This document shows positions 2,913 to 59,356 of a DNA stretch of 64,000 nucleotides, piece after piece. Below the pieces are notes generated by a model. It had not been told where the DNA came from. It did no database searches and saw nothing but the letters and a program-made list of their open reading frames with translations. Source of the DNA: Sphingomonas endolithica (GTDB lineage: Bacteria; Pseudomonadota; Alphaproteobacteria; Sphingomonadales; Sphingomonadaceae); assembly GCF_025231525.1 (NCBI RefSeq), contig NZ_CP103057.1:2614501-2678500 (forward strand). The letters are read 5' to 3'. The position numbers and the translations under genes are program-made. Every line of letters starts with the position of its first letter. Position 1 is the stretch's first letter.

Positions 2913-3211
2913 CGGGCAGTGTTTGGGGCCGGGGTACGCGGTTCCTGCTCTACACCGTCACCCCGAACTTGTTCGGCGGCTGTACCGCTCGACCAAGTAA
3001 TCCACCGTCATCCCCCGCGCAGGCGGGGATCCATATACTCGAAGGTCTGCATTTCAGCCGCTAAGCCGGCCACTATGGATCCCCGCCTTCGCGGGGATGA
3101 CGAACCATGTCTGAAAGGGATAGTTGCCGACTTATTTCGGGGTCCACCAAGCGGACTGAGGTGCAAGAGATTGGTCCCTCCCCACGGGTAGGAGTGAAGT
3201 CCGGATATCCG
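2913..3211. repeat. Intergenic region with palindromic repeats
   Basis: No gene is supported here. A degenerate half element of family I lies near 2957-2981. A complete palindromic element spans 3007-3101, with arms GTCATCCCCCGCGCAGGCGG and CCCGCCTTCGCGGGGATGAC around a 45-base centre. It separates the convergent inositol operon and response-regulator gene and could act as a transcript-end or stability structure. Confidence 0.7.
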
Positions 3212-9166: not shown

Positions 9167-9244
9167 GTTCCCCCGCGAATGCGGGGGCCCCGGGCAAATA
9201 GCGCCGGCGTTTGGAACCCTGGGCTCCCGCTTTCGCGGGAGAAC
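9167..9244. repeat. Palindromic repeat, family II
   Basis: Arms GTTCCCCCGCGAATGCGGGG and CTCCCGCTTTCGCGGGAGAAC, with CCCTGGG inside, match copies at 49941-50020 and 59280-59356. It sits between convergent genes. Confidence 0.85.
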
Positions 9245-17595: not shown

Positions 17596-20360
17596 GCGAT
17601 ACCGACAACGAAAAGCCGAAACTGGGCATGCGCGCGCCGCTGGGGCTGAAGCGCACGGTCGAGACGGGCCAGGTGAAGCAGAGCTTCAGCCATGGCCGGT
17701 CGAACACCGTGGTCGTGGAAGTGAAGCGCCGCCGTATCCTGGGACCCGGCGGAGCGCCCGAAGCGCCGGTCGAGGAAGCGGCTGCACCCGTCGCCGCACC
17801 TGCGGCGCCGGTCGCACCGCCGCGCCCTGCGCCCGCGCCGGTCTCGCCCGCCAATTCCCTGTTGTCGCGCCAGGAACTGCAGCAGAAGCTGCTGCGTGAG
17901 GCAGACGAATCGCGCATGAACGCGCTGGAGGAAACGCGTCGCCGCGAAGAGCGCGAGCGCGTCGAGGCCGCTGAAGAAGCACGCCGCCGGGCCGAGGAAG
18001 CACGTCGCGCCGGCGATGCCGCGGACTCGCCTGCCGCCCCCGAGCCTGCACCGCAGCCGGTGGCACAGCCGGTCGAGCCGACGCCTGCGCCGGTCGCGGA
18101 AGCGGCCGCACCCGCTGCCGAGCCTGCGCCCGTCGTCGCGGAAGCGCCTGCTGCCGTTGTTGCGCCGACGCCTGCGCCTGCCCCTGTTGCAGCGCCGGCA
18201 CCACCGCCTGCCGCGCCGCCTGCACCCCCGGCCCCGACGATGTTCGGCCTCGATCCGAGCATGCCGGCACCGCGACGCTTCACGCCCGTGCCCCGCCCAG
18301 AGCGGCCGAAGCCCGCACCCGCGCCGGTCGCGCAGCCCGAAGAGACGGCTCCGGTCAGCGCCGCTACGCCTGCCACGGCGGCTGCCCCTGGCAGCCCGAT
18401 CAAGCGGGCCGGCGAGACGCTGCAGCGTCCGCAGCAGCCGTCGCGTGCCCGCACCGGCGACGAACGTCGCGGCGGCAAGCTGACGGTCAATCGTGCGCTC
18501 AACGATGGCGACGGTGCGCGTGCGCGTTCGCTCGCCGCGCTGAAGCGTGCCCGCGAGAAGGAAAACCGTCGTCTCGGCGGCCCGCGCGAGGCGCAGGCCA
18601 AGCAGATCCGCGACGTTGCCGTGCCGGAAGCGATCACCGTGCAGGAACTCGCCATCCGCATGGCCGAGAAGGGCGCGGACCTGGTCAAGACGCTGTTCAA
18701 GCTGGGCATGCCCGTCACCCTGACCGAGACGATCGATCAGGATACGGCCGAGCTGTTGGTGACCGAATTCGGCCACAACATCGTCCGCGTCAGTGATTCT
18801 GATATCGATCTGGCGATCGATGGCGATGTCGAGGCGGATGAGAATGCGACCCCGCGGCCGCCAGTCGTCACGATCATGGGCCATGTCGATCACGGCAAGA
18901 CCTCGCTGCTCGATGCGTTGCGCGGCACCGATGTGGTGCGCGGCGAAGCCGGCGGCATCACGCAGCATATCGGCGCCTATCAGGTGACGTTGAAGGACAA
19001 GTCGAAGATCACCTTCCTCGACACGCCCGGCCACGAAGCGTTCACCGAAATGCGCCAGCGCGGCGCCAACGTGACGGATATCGTCGTGTTGGTCGTGGCG
19101 GCGGACGACAGCATCAAGCCGCAGACGGTGGAGGCGATCAACCACACCAAGGCGGCCGGCGTGCCGATGATCGTGGCGATCAACAAGGTCGACAAGCACG
19201 GTGCCAATCCGCAGAAGGTCCGCGAGGAACTGCTGCAGTACGAAGTGATCGTCGAGGAGATGTCTGGTGACGTGCAGGACGTGGAAGTCTCCGCGCTGCA
19301 GAAGACCGGGCTCGACGAACTGATCGAGAAGATCCAGCTGCAGGCCGAACTGCTCGAACTGAAGGCCAACCCCGATCGTGCTGCCGAAGGCACCGTGATC
19401 GAGGCCAAGCTCGACAAGGGCCGCGGTCCGGTCGCGACGATCCTGGTCAACCGCGGTACGCTGCGGGTCGGCGATATCATCGTCGTCGGCGGCGAGAGCG
19501 GCAAGGTTCGCGCGATGACCAACGACAAGGGTCAGCAGATCAAGGAAGCGGGTCCCTCGCTTCCGGTCGAAGTGCTGGGCCTGTCGGGCGTGCCGCGCGC
19601 GGGCGATCCGCTGTCGGTGGTCGAGAACGAGGCGCGTGCCCGCGAAGTCGCGGAATACCGTCAGGGCGTGATGACCAGCAAGCGGACCTCGACCGGTCCT
19701 GCAAGCCTCGAGAGCATGTTCAGTGCGCTCAAGGAAAAGCAGGCGATCGAATATCCGCTGGTGGTCAAGGCCGATACGCAGGGTTCGGTCGAGGCGATCG
19801 TCAATGCGATCAACAAGATCTCCACCGACCTGATCAGGGCCCGCGTGCTGCATTCGGGCGTCGGCGGGATCACCGAGAGCGACGTGACGTTGGCCGGTGC
19901 CAGCGGCGCGCCGATCATCGGCTTCAACGTCCGTCCCAACGCCAAGGCGCGCGAGATCGCCGAGCGGCAGAAGGTCGCGTTCAAATATTACGACGTGATC
20001 TACACGCTGACCGACGAGATCCGCGCCGGCATGGCAGGCGAGCTTGGCCCAGAGGCTTTCGAGACGGTCGTCGGCCGCGCCGAAATCCGCGAGGTCTTCT
20101 CGGCCGGCAAGCACGGCAAGGCGGCCGGCCTGCTGGTTACCGAGGGCATCATCCGCAAGGCGCTCAAGGCACGTATCACCCGGGCGGATGTCATCATCTA
20201 CCAGGGCGAGATCGCAAGTTTACGCCGCTTCAAGGACGATGTTGCAGAAGTTCGGGCCGGTCTCGAGTGCGGCGTGACGTTCACGTCGAACTTCGTCGAC
20301 ATCAAACCGGGCGACTTCCTCGAGACGTTCGAAGTCGAACTGCGCGAACGGACGCTTTGA
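17592..20360 (+). CDS. infB: Translation initiation factor IF-2
   Basis: This 922-residue GTPase delivers initiator tRNA to the 30S subunit. After an IF2-associated N-terminus come a long Ala/Pro-rich, charged linker (about 50-250) and the IF2_N segment (VPEAITVQELAIRMAEKGAD). The G domain has G1 GHVDHGKTS, G2 GGITQHIGAY, G3 DTPGHEAF and G4 NKVDK, followed by domains II-IV. The GTG at 17592 overlaps the ylxR stop, matching homologues that start MSDTDNEKPKL. Two G/C-rich antisense frames across this gene are shadows. Confidence 0.96.
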   Translation: MSDTDNEKPKLGMRAPLGLKRTVETGQVKQSFSHGRSNTVVVEVKRRRILGPGGAPEAPVEEAAAPVAAPAAPVAPPRPAPAPVSPANSLLSRQELQQKLLREADESRMNALEETRRREERERVEAAEEARRRAEEARRAGDAADSPAAPEPAPQPVAQPVEPTPAPVAEAAAPAAEPAPVVAEAPAAVVAPTPAPAPVAAPAPPPAAPPAPPAPTMFGLDPSMPAPRRFTPVPRPERPKPAPAPVAQPEETAPVSAATPATAAAPGSPIKRAGETLQRPQQPSRARTGDERRGGKLTVNRALNDGDGARARSLAALKRAREKENRRLGGPREAQAKQIRDVAVPEAITVQELAIRMAEKGADLVKTLFKLGMPVTLTETIDQDTAELLVTEFGHNIVRVSDSDIDLAIDGDVEADENATPRPPVVTIMGHVDHGKTSLLDALRGTDVVRGEAGGITQHIGAYQVTLKDKSKITFLDTPGHEAFTEMRQRGANVTDIVVLVVAADDSIKPQTVEAINHTKAAGVPMIVAINKVDKHGANPQKVREELLQYEVIVEEMSGDVQDVEVSALQKTGLDELIEKIQLQAELLELKANPDRAAEGTVIEAKLDKGRGPVATILVNRGTLRVGDIIVVGGESGKVRAMTNDKGQQIKEAGPSLPVEVLGLSGVPRAGDPLSVVENEARAREVAEYRQGVMTSKRTSTGPASLESMFSALKEKQAIEYPLVVKADTQGSVEAIVNAINKISTDLIRARVLHSGVGGITESDVTLAGASGAPIIGFNVRPNAKAREIAERQKVAFKYYDVIYTLTDEIRAGMAGELGPEAFETVVGRAEIREVFSAGKHGKAAGLLVTEGIIRKALKARITRADVIIYQGEIASLRRFKDDVAEVRAGLECGVTFTSNFVDIKPGDFLETFEVELRERTL

Positions 20361-20367
20361 CCCATAC

Positions 20368-20394
20368 GCTGCCCCGGCATCGCGCCGGGGCAGC
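20368..20394 (+). other. GC-rich hairpin between infB and rbfA
   Basis: GCTGCCCCGGC pairs with GCCGGGGCAGC across a 5-base loop, eight bases after the infB stop. No T-run follows, so it probably marks an mRNA processing or stability boundary rather than a terminator. Confidence 0.5.
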
Positions 20395-20409
20395 GACAGG
20401 ATGACGTGA

Positions 20410-20826
20410 ATGCGCTCCAACGACACACCCGAAACCCGCGTCGTGCGCCTGCTGCGCGTCGGCGAGCAGATGCGTCACACGCTGAGCGACATCCTTGCGC
20501 GCGGCGACGTGCATGACGAGACACTCGCCAAGCACATGGTGACCGTGACGGAAGTGCGCATGTCGCCAGACCTGCGCCACGCGACGGTGTTCGTGAAGCC
20601 GTTGCTGGGCAAGGACGAGGAAGCGGTGCTCAAGGCATTACGCACCAACACCGCTTATCTGCAGCGCGAATGCGCCAACCGGATCAGCATGAAATATGCC
20701 GCCAAGCTCAAGTTCGTGCCCGACGAGAGCTTTGACGAGGGCAGCCATATCGAGCAATTGTTGCGTACGCCGAAGGTCGCGCGCGACTTGAATGCCGCCG
20801 AAGACGCGGACGACGCGCAAGCCTGA
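20410..20826 (+). CDS. rbfA: Ribosome-binding factor A
   Basis: This 138-residue KH-fold protein acts in late 16S rRNA maturation and cold adaptation. It has the family N-terminus [18 protein letters not shown] and the strand-helix region [22 protein letters not shown], ending with the RbfA pattern [21 protein letters not shown]. It follows infB by 49 bases containing a hairpin. Its TGA overlaps the tdk ATG. Confidence 0.94.
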
Positions 20827-21413
20827 TGGCCAAGCTCTATTTCTATTATGCCTCGATGAATGCGGGCAAATCGACCAACCTGCTGCAAGCCGACTTCAAT
20901 TATCGCGAGCGCGGCATGCGCACCGTGTTGTTCACCGCCGCGATCGATGACCGCTTCGCACCCGGCACCATCACCTCCCGCATCGGCCTGCGCGAGGACG
21001 CGATCGCGTTCGAACGGGATACCGATCTGCTCGCGATCGTGCATCGCGAAGGCGAAGCGCCGCCGGCGTGCGTGCTGGTCGACGAAGCGCAATTTCTAAC
21101 CGCCGAACAGGTGGATCAGCTGGCAACCCTTGCCGACGTGCACGGCATTCCAGTGCTTGCTTATGGATTACGCACAGATTTCCAGGGCGCATTGTTCGAG
21201 GGTTCCGCGCGGCTGCTGGCGATTGCCGATTCGTTGGTCGAGATCAAATCGGTCTGCATGTGCGGGCGCAAGGCGACAATGAACTTGCGGCTCGATGAAT
21301 CGGGCATGCCGGTTACCGAGGGGCGGCAGACCGAGATTGGCGGCAATGATCGGTACGTCGCGCTGTGCCGCCGGCACTTCAACGAAGCGCTTGCCGGTAC
21401 GATCAGGGCCTGA
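20826..21413 (+). CDS. tdk: Thymidine kinase
   Basis: This 195-residue type II thymidine kinase phosphorylates thymidine with ATP. The P-loop lies in SMNAGKSTNLLQADFNYRER near residues 10-17, Walker B is VLVDEAQFLTAEQVDQL, and the lasso/zinc region has VCMCGRKATMN followed by LCRRHF, giving four Cys/His ligands. The ATG overlaps the rbfA stop (TGATG), and truB begins 5 bases downstream, so this salvage gene is embedded in the translation operon. The sequence looks intact. Confidence 0.94.
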   Translation: MAKLYFYYASMNAGKSTNLLQADFNYRERGMRTVLFTAAIDDRFAPGTITSRIGLREDAIAFERDTDLLAIVHREGEAPPACVLVDEAQFLTAEQVDQLATLADVHGIPVLAYGLRTDFQGALFEGSARLLAIADSLVEIKSVCMCGRKATMNLRLDESGMPVTEGRQTEIGGNDRYVALCRRHFNEALAGTIRA

Positions 21414-21418
21414 CCGCG

Positions 21419-22387
21419 ATGCATGGCTGGATCATCCTCGACAAGCCCCTCGGGCTTGGCTCGACGCAAGGCGTGTCTGCGGTGAAGCGCGCGCTGCGCG
21501 ACGGCGGCTATGGCAAGTTCAAGGTCGGCCATGGCGGCACGCTCGATCCACTAGCGACCGGCGTGCTGCCGATCGCGATCGGCGAGGCGACCAAGCTGGC
21601 GGGGCGGATGCTCGACAGCGACAAGGTGTATGAGTTCACCGTGCGGTTTGGCGTGCAGACGGATACGCTGGATCTCGAGGGCAAGGAGATCGCGTCCAGT
21701 GAGGTGCGGCCGACGCTGGCGGCGATCGAAGCAGTGCTGCCGCGCCTCACCGGTCTGATCGAGCAGGTGCCTCCAGCCTATTCCGCGCTGAAGGTGGATG
21801 GTCAACGCGCTTACGATCTGGCGCGCGCGGGCGAAGAGGTGGTGCTGGCGAGCCGATCGGTTGTGATTCATGCCCTCACCGTCCGTCATCCCAGCGAAGG
21901 CTGGGATCTCCCTGGGGAAAGCGCGCCTACTCCCGCACGAGACCCCAGCCTTCGCAGGGGTGACCATGGAGCGGGCCGGACGCTGGAGGAGATCACCCTC
22001 ACCGCCCACGTCTCCAAGGGCACCTATATCCGCAGCCTCGCACGCGACATCGCGATCGCGCTAAATACGGTCGGCCACGTCACCATGCTCCGCCGTTCGA
22101 AGGCCGGTCCGTTCACGCTCGGATCCGCGATATCGCTGGACATTCTGGCCGAAAGCGGTAAGGCACGCGCGCTAGAAGACAAACTCCTGCCCTTGAGGGC
22201 GGCGCTGGACGACATCCCGGCCCTTCCTCTTGCTCCCGATCAGGCAGGGCTGCTCCGACAGGGGCGGGTGTTGATCGGGATCGCCGCAGACGATGGCCAA
22301 TATTTTGCGCTGCTGGATGAAAGTCCCGTTGCCTTGGTAGAGGTTCAGAACCACGAGGTTCGCGTCGTTCGTGGCTTCAATCTGTAA
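21419..22387 (+). CDS. truB: tRNA pseudouridine(55) synthase TruB carrying an in-frame palindromic element
   Basis: TruB makes pseudouridine 55 in the T-loop of tRNAs. The 322 residues include the N-terminal [17 protein letters not shown], the catalytic-Asp motif [17 protein letters not shown], and [13 protein letters not shown] in the second half. Between VVIHALTV and [12 protein letters not shown], at about residues 156-184, the protein reads [15 protein letters not shown] and continues to LRRGDHG, which family members lack. The DNA here (21885-21964) is a full palindromic repeat read in frame. The ATG at 21419 is the family start. The insert lies in a loop away from the catalytic Asp, so the enzyme may still work. 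Confidence 0.93.
21885..21964. repeat. Palindromic element inserted in truB coding sequence
   Basis: Arms GTCATCCCAGCGAAGGCTGG and CCCCAGCCTTCGCAGGGGTGAC surround a short centre. Arm logic matches the intergenic copy at 3007-3101. The reading frame stays open through the whole element. Confidence 0.85.
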
Positions 22388-22410
22388 CCGATGTCGAAGG
22401 ACGAGAACAC

Positions 22411-22680
22411 ATGACGATTACCGCAGAGCGCAAGGACGCGCTCGTCAAGGACCATGGTCGCGCCGAAGGCGATACCGGTTCCACCGAAGTCCAGGTCGCG
22501 ATCCTCACCGAGCGTATCCGCAACCTGACCGAGCATTTCAAGACGCACAAGAAGGACAATCATTCGCGCCGCGGGCTGCTGATGATGGTCAACAAGCGTC
22601 GTTCGCTGCTGGATTACCTCCGCAAGACCGAGGGCCAGCGCTATACCGATCTGATCGCCAAGCTCGGGTTGCGCAAGTAA
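22411..22680 (+). CDS. rpsO: 30S ribosomal protein S15
   Basis: This 89-residue S15 binds 16S rRNA in the central domain of the 30S subunit. It has the usual [21 protein letters not shown] and [20 protein letters not shown] segments. It follows truB and precedes pnp in the conserved order. A terminator-like hairpin starts 16 bases after its stop. Confidence 0.97.
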
Positions 22681-22695
22681 CCTAGCGACGACGGG

Positions 22696-22720
22696 AACGG
22701 CGCCTTCGGGCGCCGTTTTC
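22696..22720 (+). terminator. Intrinsic-type terminator after rpsO
   Basis: AACGGCGCC pairs with GGCGCCGTT across a TTCG tetraloop and runs into TTTTC. The 9-bp stem with a stable tetraloop supports partial termination between rpsO and pnp. Confidence 0.7.
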
Positions 22721-22792
22721 GCATTTACCTCTTTCGCCATCCCGCAATTCGGCGGCGATGGCCAAGCAGGGCCACGACAGGCCCGAAACCGC

Positions 22793-22841
22793 GCAGGCCG
22801 GCTTAGCCTGCAGATAGGCCCCATTCGCATCTGGCGAATGG
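22793..22841 (+). promoter_or_regulatory. Two hairpins in the pnp leader
   Basis: GCAGGC/GCCTGC (22793-22811) and CCATTCGC/GCGAATGG (22821-22841) form consecutive stems, ending 16 bases before the pnp ATG. In Escherichia coli the pnp leader folds into RNase III-cleaved stems used for autoregulation; similar use here is an inference. Confidence 0.45.
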
Positions 22842-22857
22842 CGTTGAAGGAAAACAC

Positions 22858-25233
22858 ATGTTCGATACCAAGACCGTAAGCGCCCAATGGGGCGGCAAGA
22901 CGCTGACGCTGGAAACCGGCCGCGTTGCGCGCCAGGCCAATGGCGCCGTGCTGGCGACCCTAGGCGAAACCGTCGTGCTGTGCGCCGTGACCGCCGCACG
23001 CACCGTGAAGGAGGGCCAGGATTTCTTCCCGCTCACCGTCCATTATCAGGAAAAGTACAGCGCCGCCGGCCGCATCCCCGGTGGTTTCTTCAAGCGTGAG
23101 CGCGGTGCGACCGAGAAGGAAACGCTGACCAGCCGCCTGATCGATCGGCCGATTCGGCCTTTGTTTCCGGAGGGGTTTTATAACGAGATTAACGTTATTT
23201 GCCAGGTTCTGTCCTATGATGGGGAGAATGAGCCGGACGTGCTTGCGATGGTGGCGGCTTCGGCTGCGCTGACCATCAGCGGCGTGCCGTTTATGGGGCC
23301 GATCGGGGCGGCTCGGGTTGGTTACATCGATGGCGAGTATATCCTGAACCCTACGCATGAGCAGGCGAAGGACGGCGATCTCGACCTAGTGGTCGCCGCG
23401 ACGCCGGGCGCGGTGATGATGGTGGAGTCCGAGGCCAAGGAGCTGTCGGAAGAGGTGATGCTGGGCGCGGTGCAGTTCGCGCACAAGGCGTGCACCGAAG
23501 CCGCCAACCTGATCATCGATCTGGCCGAGCAGGCCGCCAAGGAGCCTTGGGAGATGGCCGAGCAGGCTGATCTCTCGACCGCCAAGGACAAGCTCAAGAA
23601 GCTGATCGGCAAGGACATTGCCGCCGCCTACAAGGTGACCGACAAGTCCAAGCGGTCGGACCTGCTGAGTGCCGCCCGCCACAAGGCCAAGGAAGCGTTC
23701 GCCGATGCGGCGCCGCAGGACCAGATGGCCGCGGGCAAGCTGGTCAAGAAGCTGGAAGCGGAAATCGTCCGCGGCGCGATCCTGAAGGATGGTACGCGCA
23801 TCGACGGCCGCACCACCACGCAGATCCGCCCGATCGAGGCGATGGTGCACTTCCTGCCGCGCACGCACGGCTCGGCCTTGTTCACGCGCGGCGAGACGCA
23901 GTCGATCTGCACGACAACGCTCGGCACGCGCGACGCCGAGCAGATGATCGACGGCCTGTCGGGCCTGACGTACGAAAACTTCATGCTGCACTACAACTTC
24001 CCGCCTTACTCGGTCGGTGAAGTCGGCCGCTTCGGCGCGCCGGGCCGCCGCGAAGTCGGCCATGGCAAGCTTGCCTGGCGCGCGCTGCACCCGGTGCTGC
24101 CGTCGAAGGAGGACTTCCCGTACACGATCCGCGTGCTCAGCGACATCACGGAGAGCAACGGCTCCTCGTCGATGGCGACGGTGTGCGGCGGTTCGCTGTC
24201 GATGATGGATGCCGGCGTGCCGCTGAAGCGCCCGGTATCGGGCATCGCGATGGGCCTGATCCTGGAAGGCAAGAACTTCGCGGTGCTCAGCGACATCCTG
24301 GGTGACGAAGATCATCTGGGCGACATGGACTTCAAGGTCGCCGGCACGTCCGAGGGCATCACCACGATGCAGATGGACATCAAGATTGCCGGCATCACCG
24401 AGGAGATCATGGGCAAGGCGCTGGCACAGGCCAAGGAAGGCCGCGCGCACATCCTGGAAGAGATGGCGCGCGCGCTGGACCATACGCGCGAGGAACTGTC
24501 GGCACACGCCCCGCGCATCGAAAGCTTCACGATCGACAAGTCGAAGATCCGCGAAGTGATCGGCACCGGCGGCAAGGTGATCCGCGAGATCGTCGCGCAG
24601 ACCGGCGCCAAGGTCGACATCGACGACGAGGGCGTGATCAAGGTGTCGTCGTCCGACCCGGCGCAGATCGAGGCCGCGATCAAGTGGATCAAGGGCCTGG
24701 TCGAGGAAGCGGAAGTCGGCAAGGTGTATGACGGCAAGGTCGTCAACATGGTCGATTTCGGCGCGTTCGTGAACTTCATGGGCGGCAAGGACGGGCTCGT
24801 CCACGTTTCCGAAATCCGCAACGAGCGGACCGAGAAGGTCACCGACGTGCTGAGCGAAGGTCAGGCCGTGAAGGTCAAGGTCCTCGAGATCGACCCGCGC
24901 GGCAAGGTGCGCCTGTCGATGCGCGTCGTCGACCAGGAGACCGGTGCCGAGCTGGAAGACACGCGGCCCGCGCGTGAACCGCGCGAAGGCGGCGACCGCC
25001 CGCGCGGCGACCGTCCGCGTCGTGACGGCGACGGCGGCCGTGGCCCACGTGGCGACGGCGGCGGTGGCCGTGACGGTGGCGATCGCGGTCCCCGCGGTCC
25101 GCGCCGTGACGGTGACGGCGGCCGTGGCCCACGTCGCGATGGCGGCGAGCGTGCCCCGCGCAGCGAAGGCGGCAAGGATGAGGGTCCGGCACCCGAATTC
25201 GCCCCGGCGTTCTTGACGGGCGATCGCGACTAA
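22858..25233 (+). CDS. pnp: Polyribonucleotide nucleotidyltransferase (PNPase)
   Basis: PNPase degrades RNA 3' to 5' with phosphate and is a degradosome component. The 791 residues have two RNase PH domains, the linking helical domain, a KH domain ([20 protein letters not shown]) and an S1 domain ([20 protein letters not shown]). An Arg/Gly/Asp tail of repeated [14 protein letters not shown] units follows. AAGGA precedes the ATG. Codons between about 23150 and 23370 end in T, A or G far more often than the C-rich remainder, while the protein stays conserved. A strong terminator follows. Confidence 0.97.
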
Positions 25234-49940: not shown

Positions 49941-50020
49941 CGTTCTCCCGCGAAAGCGGGAGCCCAGGGTTATTGAGGGATACGCTTGTGGCCCTGGGCC
50001 CCCGCTTTCGCGGGGGAACG
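49941..50020. repeat. Palindromic repeat, family II
   Basis: Arms CGTTCTCCCGCGAAAGCGGG and CCCGCTTTCGCGGGGGAACG enclose CCCAGGG and CCCTGGG sub-arms. It lies in the divergent region between the hydroxylase gene and crtY, so it may influence either promoter. Confidence 0.85.
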
Positions 50021-53557: not shown

Positions 53558-53663
53558 GTTCCCCGGCGTAGGCCGGGGTCCAGTCGGGAGGCAGCAATTG
53601 GCTGGCGGCGCGCTTCGTTACCTGGACCTTCGCAACTGGGCCCCGGCCTGCGCCGGGGAACAG
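53558..53663. repeat. Palindromic repeat, family V, upstream of crtB
   Basis: Arms GTTCCCCGGCGTAGGCCGGG and CCCCGGCCTGCGCCGGGGAAC around a 65-base centre. The right arm ends 2-3 bases before the crtB ATG, so its GGGGAA serves as the only ribosome-binding-like sequence. Confidence 0.85.
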
Positions 53664-59279: not shown

Positions 59280-59356
59280 GTTCTCCCGCGAAAGCGGGAG
59301 CCCAGGGTTACGAGGGTGGCGCTTGTGGCTCTGGGCCCCCGCTTTCGCGGGGGAAC
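59280..59356. repeat. Palindromic repeat, family II
   Basis: Arms GTTCTCCCGCGAAAGCGGG and CCCGCTTTCGCGGGGGAAC with inner CCCAGGG/CCCTGGG-like parts. It lies between convergent genes and is nearly identical to the copy at 49941-50020. Confidence 0.85.

Follow-up and report, generated by a model that had tools for sequence, protein, structure and literature searches.

REPs of the CGTC-1 type carry a CGTC tag, an 8-bp stem, a 4-nt loop and, in most, a CCA tail, and occur mainly as head-to-head dimers (PMC3733652, Di Nocera et al. 2013). As described in the sections of that survey devoted to them, CGTC REPs are mostly alphaproteobacterial and have no dedicated transposase, and some REP copies are intragenic, including ones in truB and in tRNA synthetase genes. 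The same sections report truB REPs in several bacteria, the names given including maltophilia, E. lithoralis and S. alaskensis, and recall the RPE-1 in truB of R. conorii. REPs in one functional category are stated there to lie at different sites, with recB of two Xanthomonas as the exception, and intragenic REPs are listed by single species. RPEs, in turn, occur in frame in many Rickettsia proteins, according to the relevant parts of two reports (PMC10969869, PMC2229807), while the GTAG REP/RAYT system, as outlined in PMC3733652, comprises short palindromes that are often dimers and mostly intergenic.

The element analysed here, from Sphingomonas endolithica, resembles the CGTC-1 REPs of that survey in its CGTC left tag, 8-bp stem, 4-nt loop, inverted pairing and intragenic position in truB. 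It resembles RPEs in being a dispersed palindrome found in frame in conserved proteins (here TruB, IleRS, IspDF and a CobD-like protein), although the Rickettsia hosts of RPEs are intracellular. The likeness to Rickettsia palindromes proposed in a preliminary description of this DNA holds good, as R. conorii RPE-6 is equated with CGTC-1 in the sections consulted (PMC3733652) and the element has the CGTC-1 anatomy except for its tail and right-hand tag. Short palindromic form, frequent dimers and a mostly intergenic location are shared with the GTAG REP/RAYT system as outlined there, but the tag is CGTC and a search of this genome for PF01797 (Y1/RAYT transposase) gave no match. REP insertion in truB as such is already in print (PMC3733652). 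The new part, going beyond the relevant sections of that survey, is multi-family turnover at the same loop: unlike CGTC-1 REPs as described there, one TruB loop serves several repeat families across a genus. In the open literature, a scope that leaves most subscription journals aside, we found no account of turnover of palindromes at one TruB loop in Sphingomonas.

The palindrome in truB and its copies in the genome

The window, the whole stretch of 64,000 nucleotides that was analysed, contains on its + strand a truB gene (21419..22387; ORF 21419-22384, with the stop codon extending to 22387) encoding a tRNA pseudouridine(55) synthase of 322 amino acids, insert included, which scored 208.1 bits against TIGR00431 in a family profile scan (cut-off 151.45). 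In the TruB frame, at about residues 156-182, lies a head-to-head palindrome (21884..21965, + strand) that was assigned as a CGTC-1-type REP dimer from its inverted repeat, fold and arm matches. The left REP unit (21884..21907, + strand) has its CGTC tag at 21884-21887, an 8-bp stem formed by ATCCCAGC and GCTGGGAT, and the loop GAAG at 21896-21899, as delimited from the sequence and the family definition given in PMC3733652. The right unit, in the opposite orientation (21942..21965, - strand) and delimited from the sequence and a repeat search, has the variant tag GGTC, the loop GAAG and one stem mismatch. The 26-nt arms of the inverted repeat (21885-21910 and 21939-21964) are 88% complementary, are spaced by 28 nt and each form a small hairpin by themselves, as read from the sequence. 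The folding energy of the region is -59.4 kcal/mol (z -5.8), a value that none of 200 shuffles equals, and an Rfam scan of positions 20000-24000 returned a single match, far under its gathering score. The truB frame is open through the 80-bp palindrome (21885-21964) and, since 80 is not divisible by 3, it rests on the junction bases. The arms, the fold and an ORF open over 322 amino acids thus bear out the preliminary description in placing a palindrome in frame within truB, but its estimate of about 29 inserted residues has to be lowered, the net gain being 25 relative to the insert-free TruB of Sphingomonas hylomeconis (L061; 322 versus 297 amino acids). In all but the tail and the right-hand tag, the anatomy fits that of a CGTC-1 REP dimer.

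Alignment with E. coli TruB (1r3f) leaves one residue between the two matched blocks at the insert site. In a structure model of the window protein (mean pLDDT 73.9), residues 156-182 are predicted to form a disordered loop flanked by strands 146-155 and 191-198, and pLDDT falls below 50 at 159-161 and 163-184. On mapping to this model, the insert would therefore occupy a surface loop between two strands, as had been anticipated.

The arm pattern, allowing up to two mismatches, has 128 matches in the 4.09-Mb genome and 0 for the reversed control, and a 20-base arm recurs within the window at 3082-3101 with two mismatches. The earlier claim of same-arm elements in intergenic positions elsewhere is confirmed, and the idea that the truB element might lack other genomic copies is contradicted. 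Counts for the family of the truB element (F1, CGTC-1) derive from 100 of the 128 arm places, which gave 68 elements, all examined; those for a second family (F2) derive from 100 of 195 places, which gave 83 elements, 80 of them examined. The 37 complete inverted pairs recovered (36 F1, and one F2 picked up by the same script) are alike in anatomy: C precedes GTC in 64 of their 74 units, the 8-bp stem is perfect in 63 of 74, and the tail, which is CTC in the truB copy, is CCA in 60 of 74. Copies of the common type are 93-94 bp long, but the truB copy is nearer to a less frequent subtype with 80-82 bp, found at genome positions 256114, 419593 and 1467701. Length is divisible by three in 9 of the 37 complete copies, and 90 of their 222 frames are open. 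F3-like places number 122 in this genome with both strands counted, against 26 for the control. Like the arm at 3082-3101, the window places of the second family (about 7723, 16654 and 54665) and the palindromes at 9172-9239 and 59285-59351 overlap no predicted gene. Two further window palindromes, at 49947-50014 and 53563-53656, touch the upstream edge of stop-to-stop ORFs.

Loop length and repeat types among relatives

TruB is present in 60 of 61 genomes searched. A further 80 named loci were added, and of 110 TruB loci 98 were kept after removal of one truncated locus (L052) and 11 exact loop duplicates of another locus. The loop measures 45-91 amino acids in 73 of these 98 non-duplicate Sphingomonas-group loci, a proportion biased upward because the query that yielded the 80 named loci as its best matches itself contains an insert, and 23-34 amino acids in the other 25, some of which resemble deletion remnants. 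A less biased genus sample of 37 genomes, two of them with the locus on contig edges, has the long loop in 21 of 35 scorable genomes by hand count, the window genome included and L050 being one of the 21; six of the short loops were inferred from match coordinates. Outside the genus but within the order, loop length is estimated at 23-28 amino acids in 23 of 23 scorable genomes, and one of 24 had no match. For the species abbreviated in the REP survey, the full names and the nearness to Sphingomonas are our assumption. Since the relevant sections of that survey report truB inserts in species beyond the genus sample (PMC3733652), such inserts are not strictly confined to Sphingomonas.

The long loops are stop-free by construction, as they were cut from open frames; an independent sign is that the genome search listed no internal stop for TruB matches within the genus. 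Strong hairpins (z < -3) were found in 65 of the 73 long loops versus 2 of the 25 short ones, and the remaining 8 long loops, L050 among them, fold no better than shuffles at z -3. Eight repeat types (F1-F8) cover all long loops but one, the labels having been assigned by patterns and by hand with F3 as the default for long loops: F3 in 48, F1 in 10, F2 in 7, F5 in 2, F4, F6, F7 and F8 in one each, and an F1+F3 double in one. The exception, L050, has a loop of about 60 amino acids that fits no repeat type, and in the double (L051, about 90 amino acids) two palindromes of different families adjoin, F1 then F3. Compared by blastn at E 1e-4, which has little power on sequences this short, the types show just two links, F2 to F6 and F3 to F8, apart from 22 bp of host flank common to F2 and F3. 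F4 and F8 are alike by eye. F1, F2 and F6 may form one superfamily with a common GTCA start, like the CGTC REPs as described in PMC3733652. With these likenesses allowed for, there are at least four groups between which no similarity is detectable. Dispersed copies exist of F1 and F2 in this genome and of F3 in three relatives. F4, F6 and F8 are likewise dispersed, with 38, 70 and 71 matches over both strands in the respective carrier genomes, and F5-like arms are present in this genome.

Among 119 relatives listed, window protein included and labelled by protein patterns, 37 carry the family of the window element, 42 and 22 carry two others, and 15 are short, so that the inserted residues are not common to most related TruB proteins, a possibility that would have spoken against the preliminary description. 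A different family occupies the loop in P0004, whose core is the most similar (95%), but P0002, the nearest by path, and P0003 contain diverged copies from the window element's family.

Turnover at the loop and its proposed explanation

On a tree of the 98 loci, built from TruB without the loop columns, RpsO and the Pnp N-terminus, the loop label changes at least 36 times, against a mean of 44.9 for shuffled labels with 0 of 200 as low, from which it follows that the label is in part passed on by descent and in part switches. The well-supported branches by themselves require 15 changes of F3, 8 of F1 and 6 of F2; support is weak for 33 of the 95 inner branches. A protein tree of the 119 relatives, with 49 of 115 inner branches weak, gives at least 46 changes, and the supported set of three around the window TruB contains two F1 and one F3. 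Among close pairs, two strains of S. sanguinis differ, one having a short loop (L103) and the other F3 (L112), and Sphingomonas sp. Leaf230 (L080, loop identical to L033, F2) stands beside the F3-bearing S. faeni group. Amino-acid constraint on the element is relaxed: in seven groups with a common insert, pN/pS is 0.57-1.61 for the element, the top value coming from five differences, versus 0.09-0.29 for the core. These ratios fit expectation for an insert peptide that would be only weakly constrained.

We propose that a CGTC-1 REP dimer, belonging to a large set of dispersed palindromes, sits in a turn of TruB and that this loop has, in Sphingomonas, repeatedly gained, lost and exchanged palindrome families because it tolerates stop-free, frame-keeping inserts, a reading to which we assign a probability of about 0.8. 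The dimer would have inserted in frame into a beta-hairpin turn, directly before the next strand, and would be transcribed and translated into a disordered surface loop on a still working enzyme; translation in vivo and retained TruB activity are both probable. Palindromes would land genome-wide and frame-breaking insertions would be purged, while several families could come, go and replace one another at the TruB loop across the genus. The elements presumably arrive through some transposition or recombination process. Of the two marks of a MITE, a target-site duplication and a matching transposase, the first was not seen in clean form by eye in truB pair alignments or in one intergenic filled/empty comparison, where the flanks differ too, and for the second the search covered PF01797 and gave no match. 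The hotspot thus conceived would reflect tolerance rather than targeting.

Several other explanations were weighed. Selection could have favoured the loop because it gives the truB-rpsO-pnp message a strong RNA hairpin, acting in processing, stability or translation control, such that any palindrome serves and its identity changes while the hairpin stays. The 65 strong hairpins among the 73 long loops agree with this, as does the S. faeni group, in whose nine sequences paired sites have a distance of 0.044, alike at all codon positions, versus 0.238 for core third positions, making the stems about five times slower to change. However, 25 of the 98 loci, close sisters of carriers among them, have no long loop, and, the source families being hairpins anyway, strong folding is to be expected even in the absence of selection at truB. 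Intergenic copies, moreover, keep their stems too: paired sites change less than unpaired ones in 15 of the 16 orthologous pairs measured, with one tie, and the stem distance lies under that of the 80-bp flanks in 10 of 16 (16 of 23 pairs were measurable, 7 being missed by the element pattern). Stem conservation is therefore a property of the element, whether through conversion, hairpin-directed repair or selection, and is no evidence of a function in truB. A truB-specific hairpin constraint, considered from the S. faeni group, was dropped since intergenic orthologous copies behave similarly, and no evidence for a truB-specific function of the insert was found in these comparisons. We regard selection for a message hairpin as very unlikely. 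The related idea that the loop is a standing exchange site, at which families are swapped in situ and in frame among close species, possibly since a hairpin in this message is useful, is distinctly doubtful.

Insertion machinery aimed at this spot by sequence or structure would account for the use of one loop by several repeat families, and it accords with the presence of REPs in truB of several bacteria, as reported in the sections of PMC3733652 cited above, and with the absence of comparable inserts nearby: across 98 rows for the remainder of TruB, 89 for RpsO and 97 for the Pnp N-terminus, no internal insert reaches 10 amino acids, with the exception of a stretch in 8 rows that, in our reading, precedes the start of Pnp. 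On the other hand, the families, judged by eye, differ in insertion point by several codons, they fall into at least four groups without detectable common sequence, the loop is short in all 23 scorable genomes of other genera, and this genome gave no match to PF01797; we regard such targeting as very unlikely. Instead of repeated insertion, the patchwork might reflect truB alleles passing horizontally between species, a reading that we consider unlikely. Flanks are similar enough for recombination, related strains differ in element, and several pairs are more diverged over the 180 bp that follow the loop than further downstream. Yet same-element pairs show an equal downstream profile by eye, so the profile is not tied to exchange, and inspection by eye of divergence profiles for 15 pairs, including 4 same-element controls, revealed no clear recombination tract beside the loop, though short ones may have escaped notice. 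Exchange alone, moreover, cannot bring several repeat families to one site, and the same three-way difference exists outside truB, in one intergenic spacer (L268-L272) that contains F3, no element or a different, TTCACGCGGAGACGCGG-type palindrome in three related genomes.

With repeated insertion into a tolerant loop as the preferred reading, the locus amounts to a natural replicated experiment, in which one loop of a core enzyme occurs with and without inserts of several families in close relatives. It makes testable whether REP-type palindromes are still mobile without a known transposase, how frequently selfish DNA turns into protein, and whether a function has been acquired by the loop or by the hairpin in the message.

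Elements in frame in other proteins

The suggestion that the element be sought in other coding regions of this genome proved fruitful, as an F1 element also lies in frame in IleRS, and F2 elements do so in IspDF and in a protein resembling CobD. Together with TruB these amount to 2 of 68 F1 and 2 of 80 F2 elements in frame inside recognised proteins, or 4 of 148 examined, a count whose family scans leave out L359 and the + strand frame of L310. With just 4 of 148 elements so placed, the frequent occupancy of TruB would have to rest on tolerance alone, and there may be a targeting bias toward its loop. The candidate L008 was set aside for want of an NCBIfam match, as were L342, L364 and L346 for want of a Pfam match, and SufD (L310, - strand) and FliP (L340) are edge cases in which the element lies at or before the probable start.

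IleRS (L158, C1:1417638-1420058), with an F1 element, scored 679.7 bits against TIGR00392 (cut-off 621.4). The two loci with F2 (CGTC-2-like) elements in frame, IspDF and the CobD-like decarboxylase, are L301 (C1:641845-643370) and L333 (C1:2441403-2442928). IspDF is over the cut-off for both TIGR00453 (205.5 bits) and TIGR00151 (149.7) and under it for NF006899 (391.6, cut-off 417), and the CobD-like protein is under it for TIGR01140 (248.8, cut-off 290.55). Extra length in TruB, IleRS, IspDF and CobD-like proteins of this kind may represent real insertions rather than annotation errors. The IleRS site could be cut out in 23 of 30 loci; in two relatives (L181 and L207) F5 occupies the loop used in the window genome, and in L183 F1 lies in a different loop, as identified by peptide only. 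By these counts, TruB is the commoner of the two sites compared across relatives, yet it is not the sole site.
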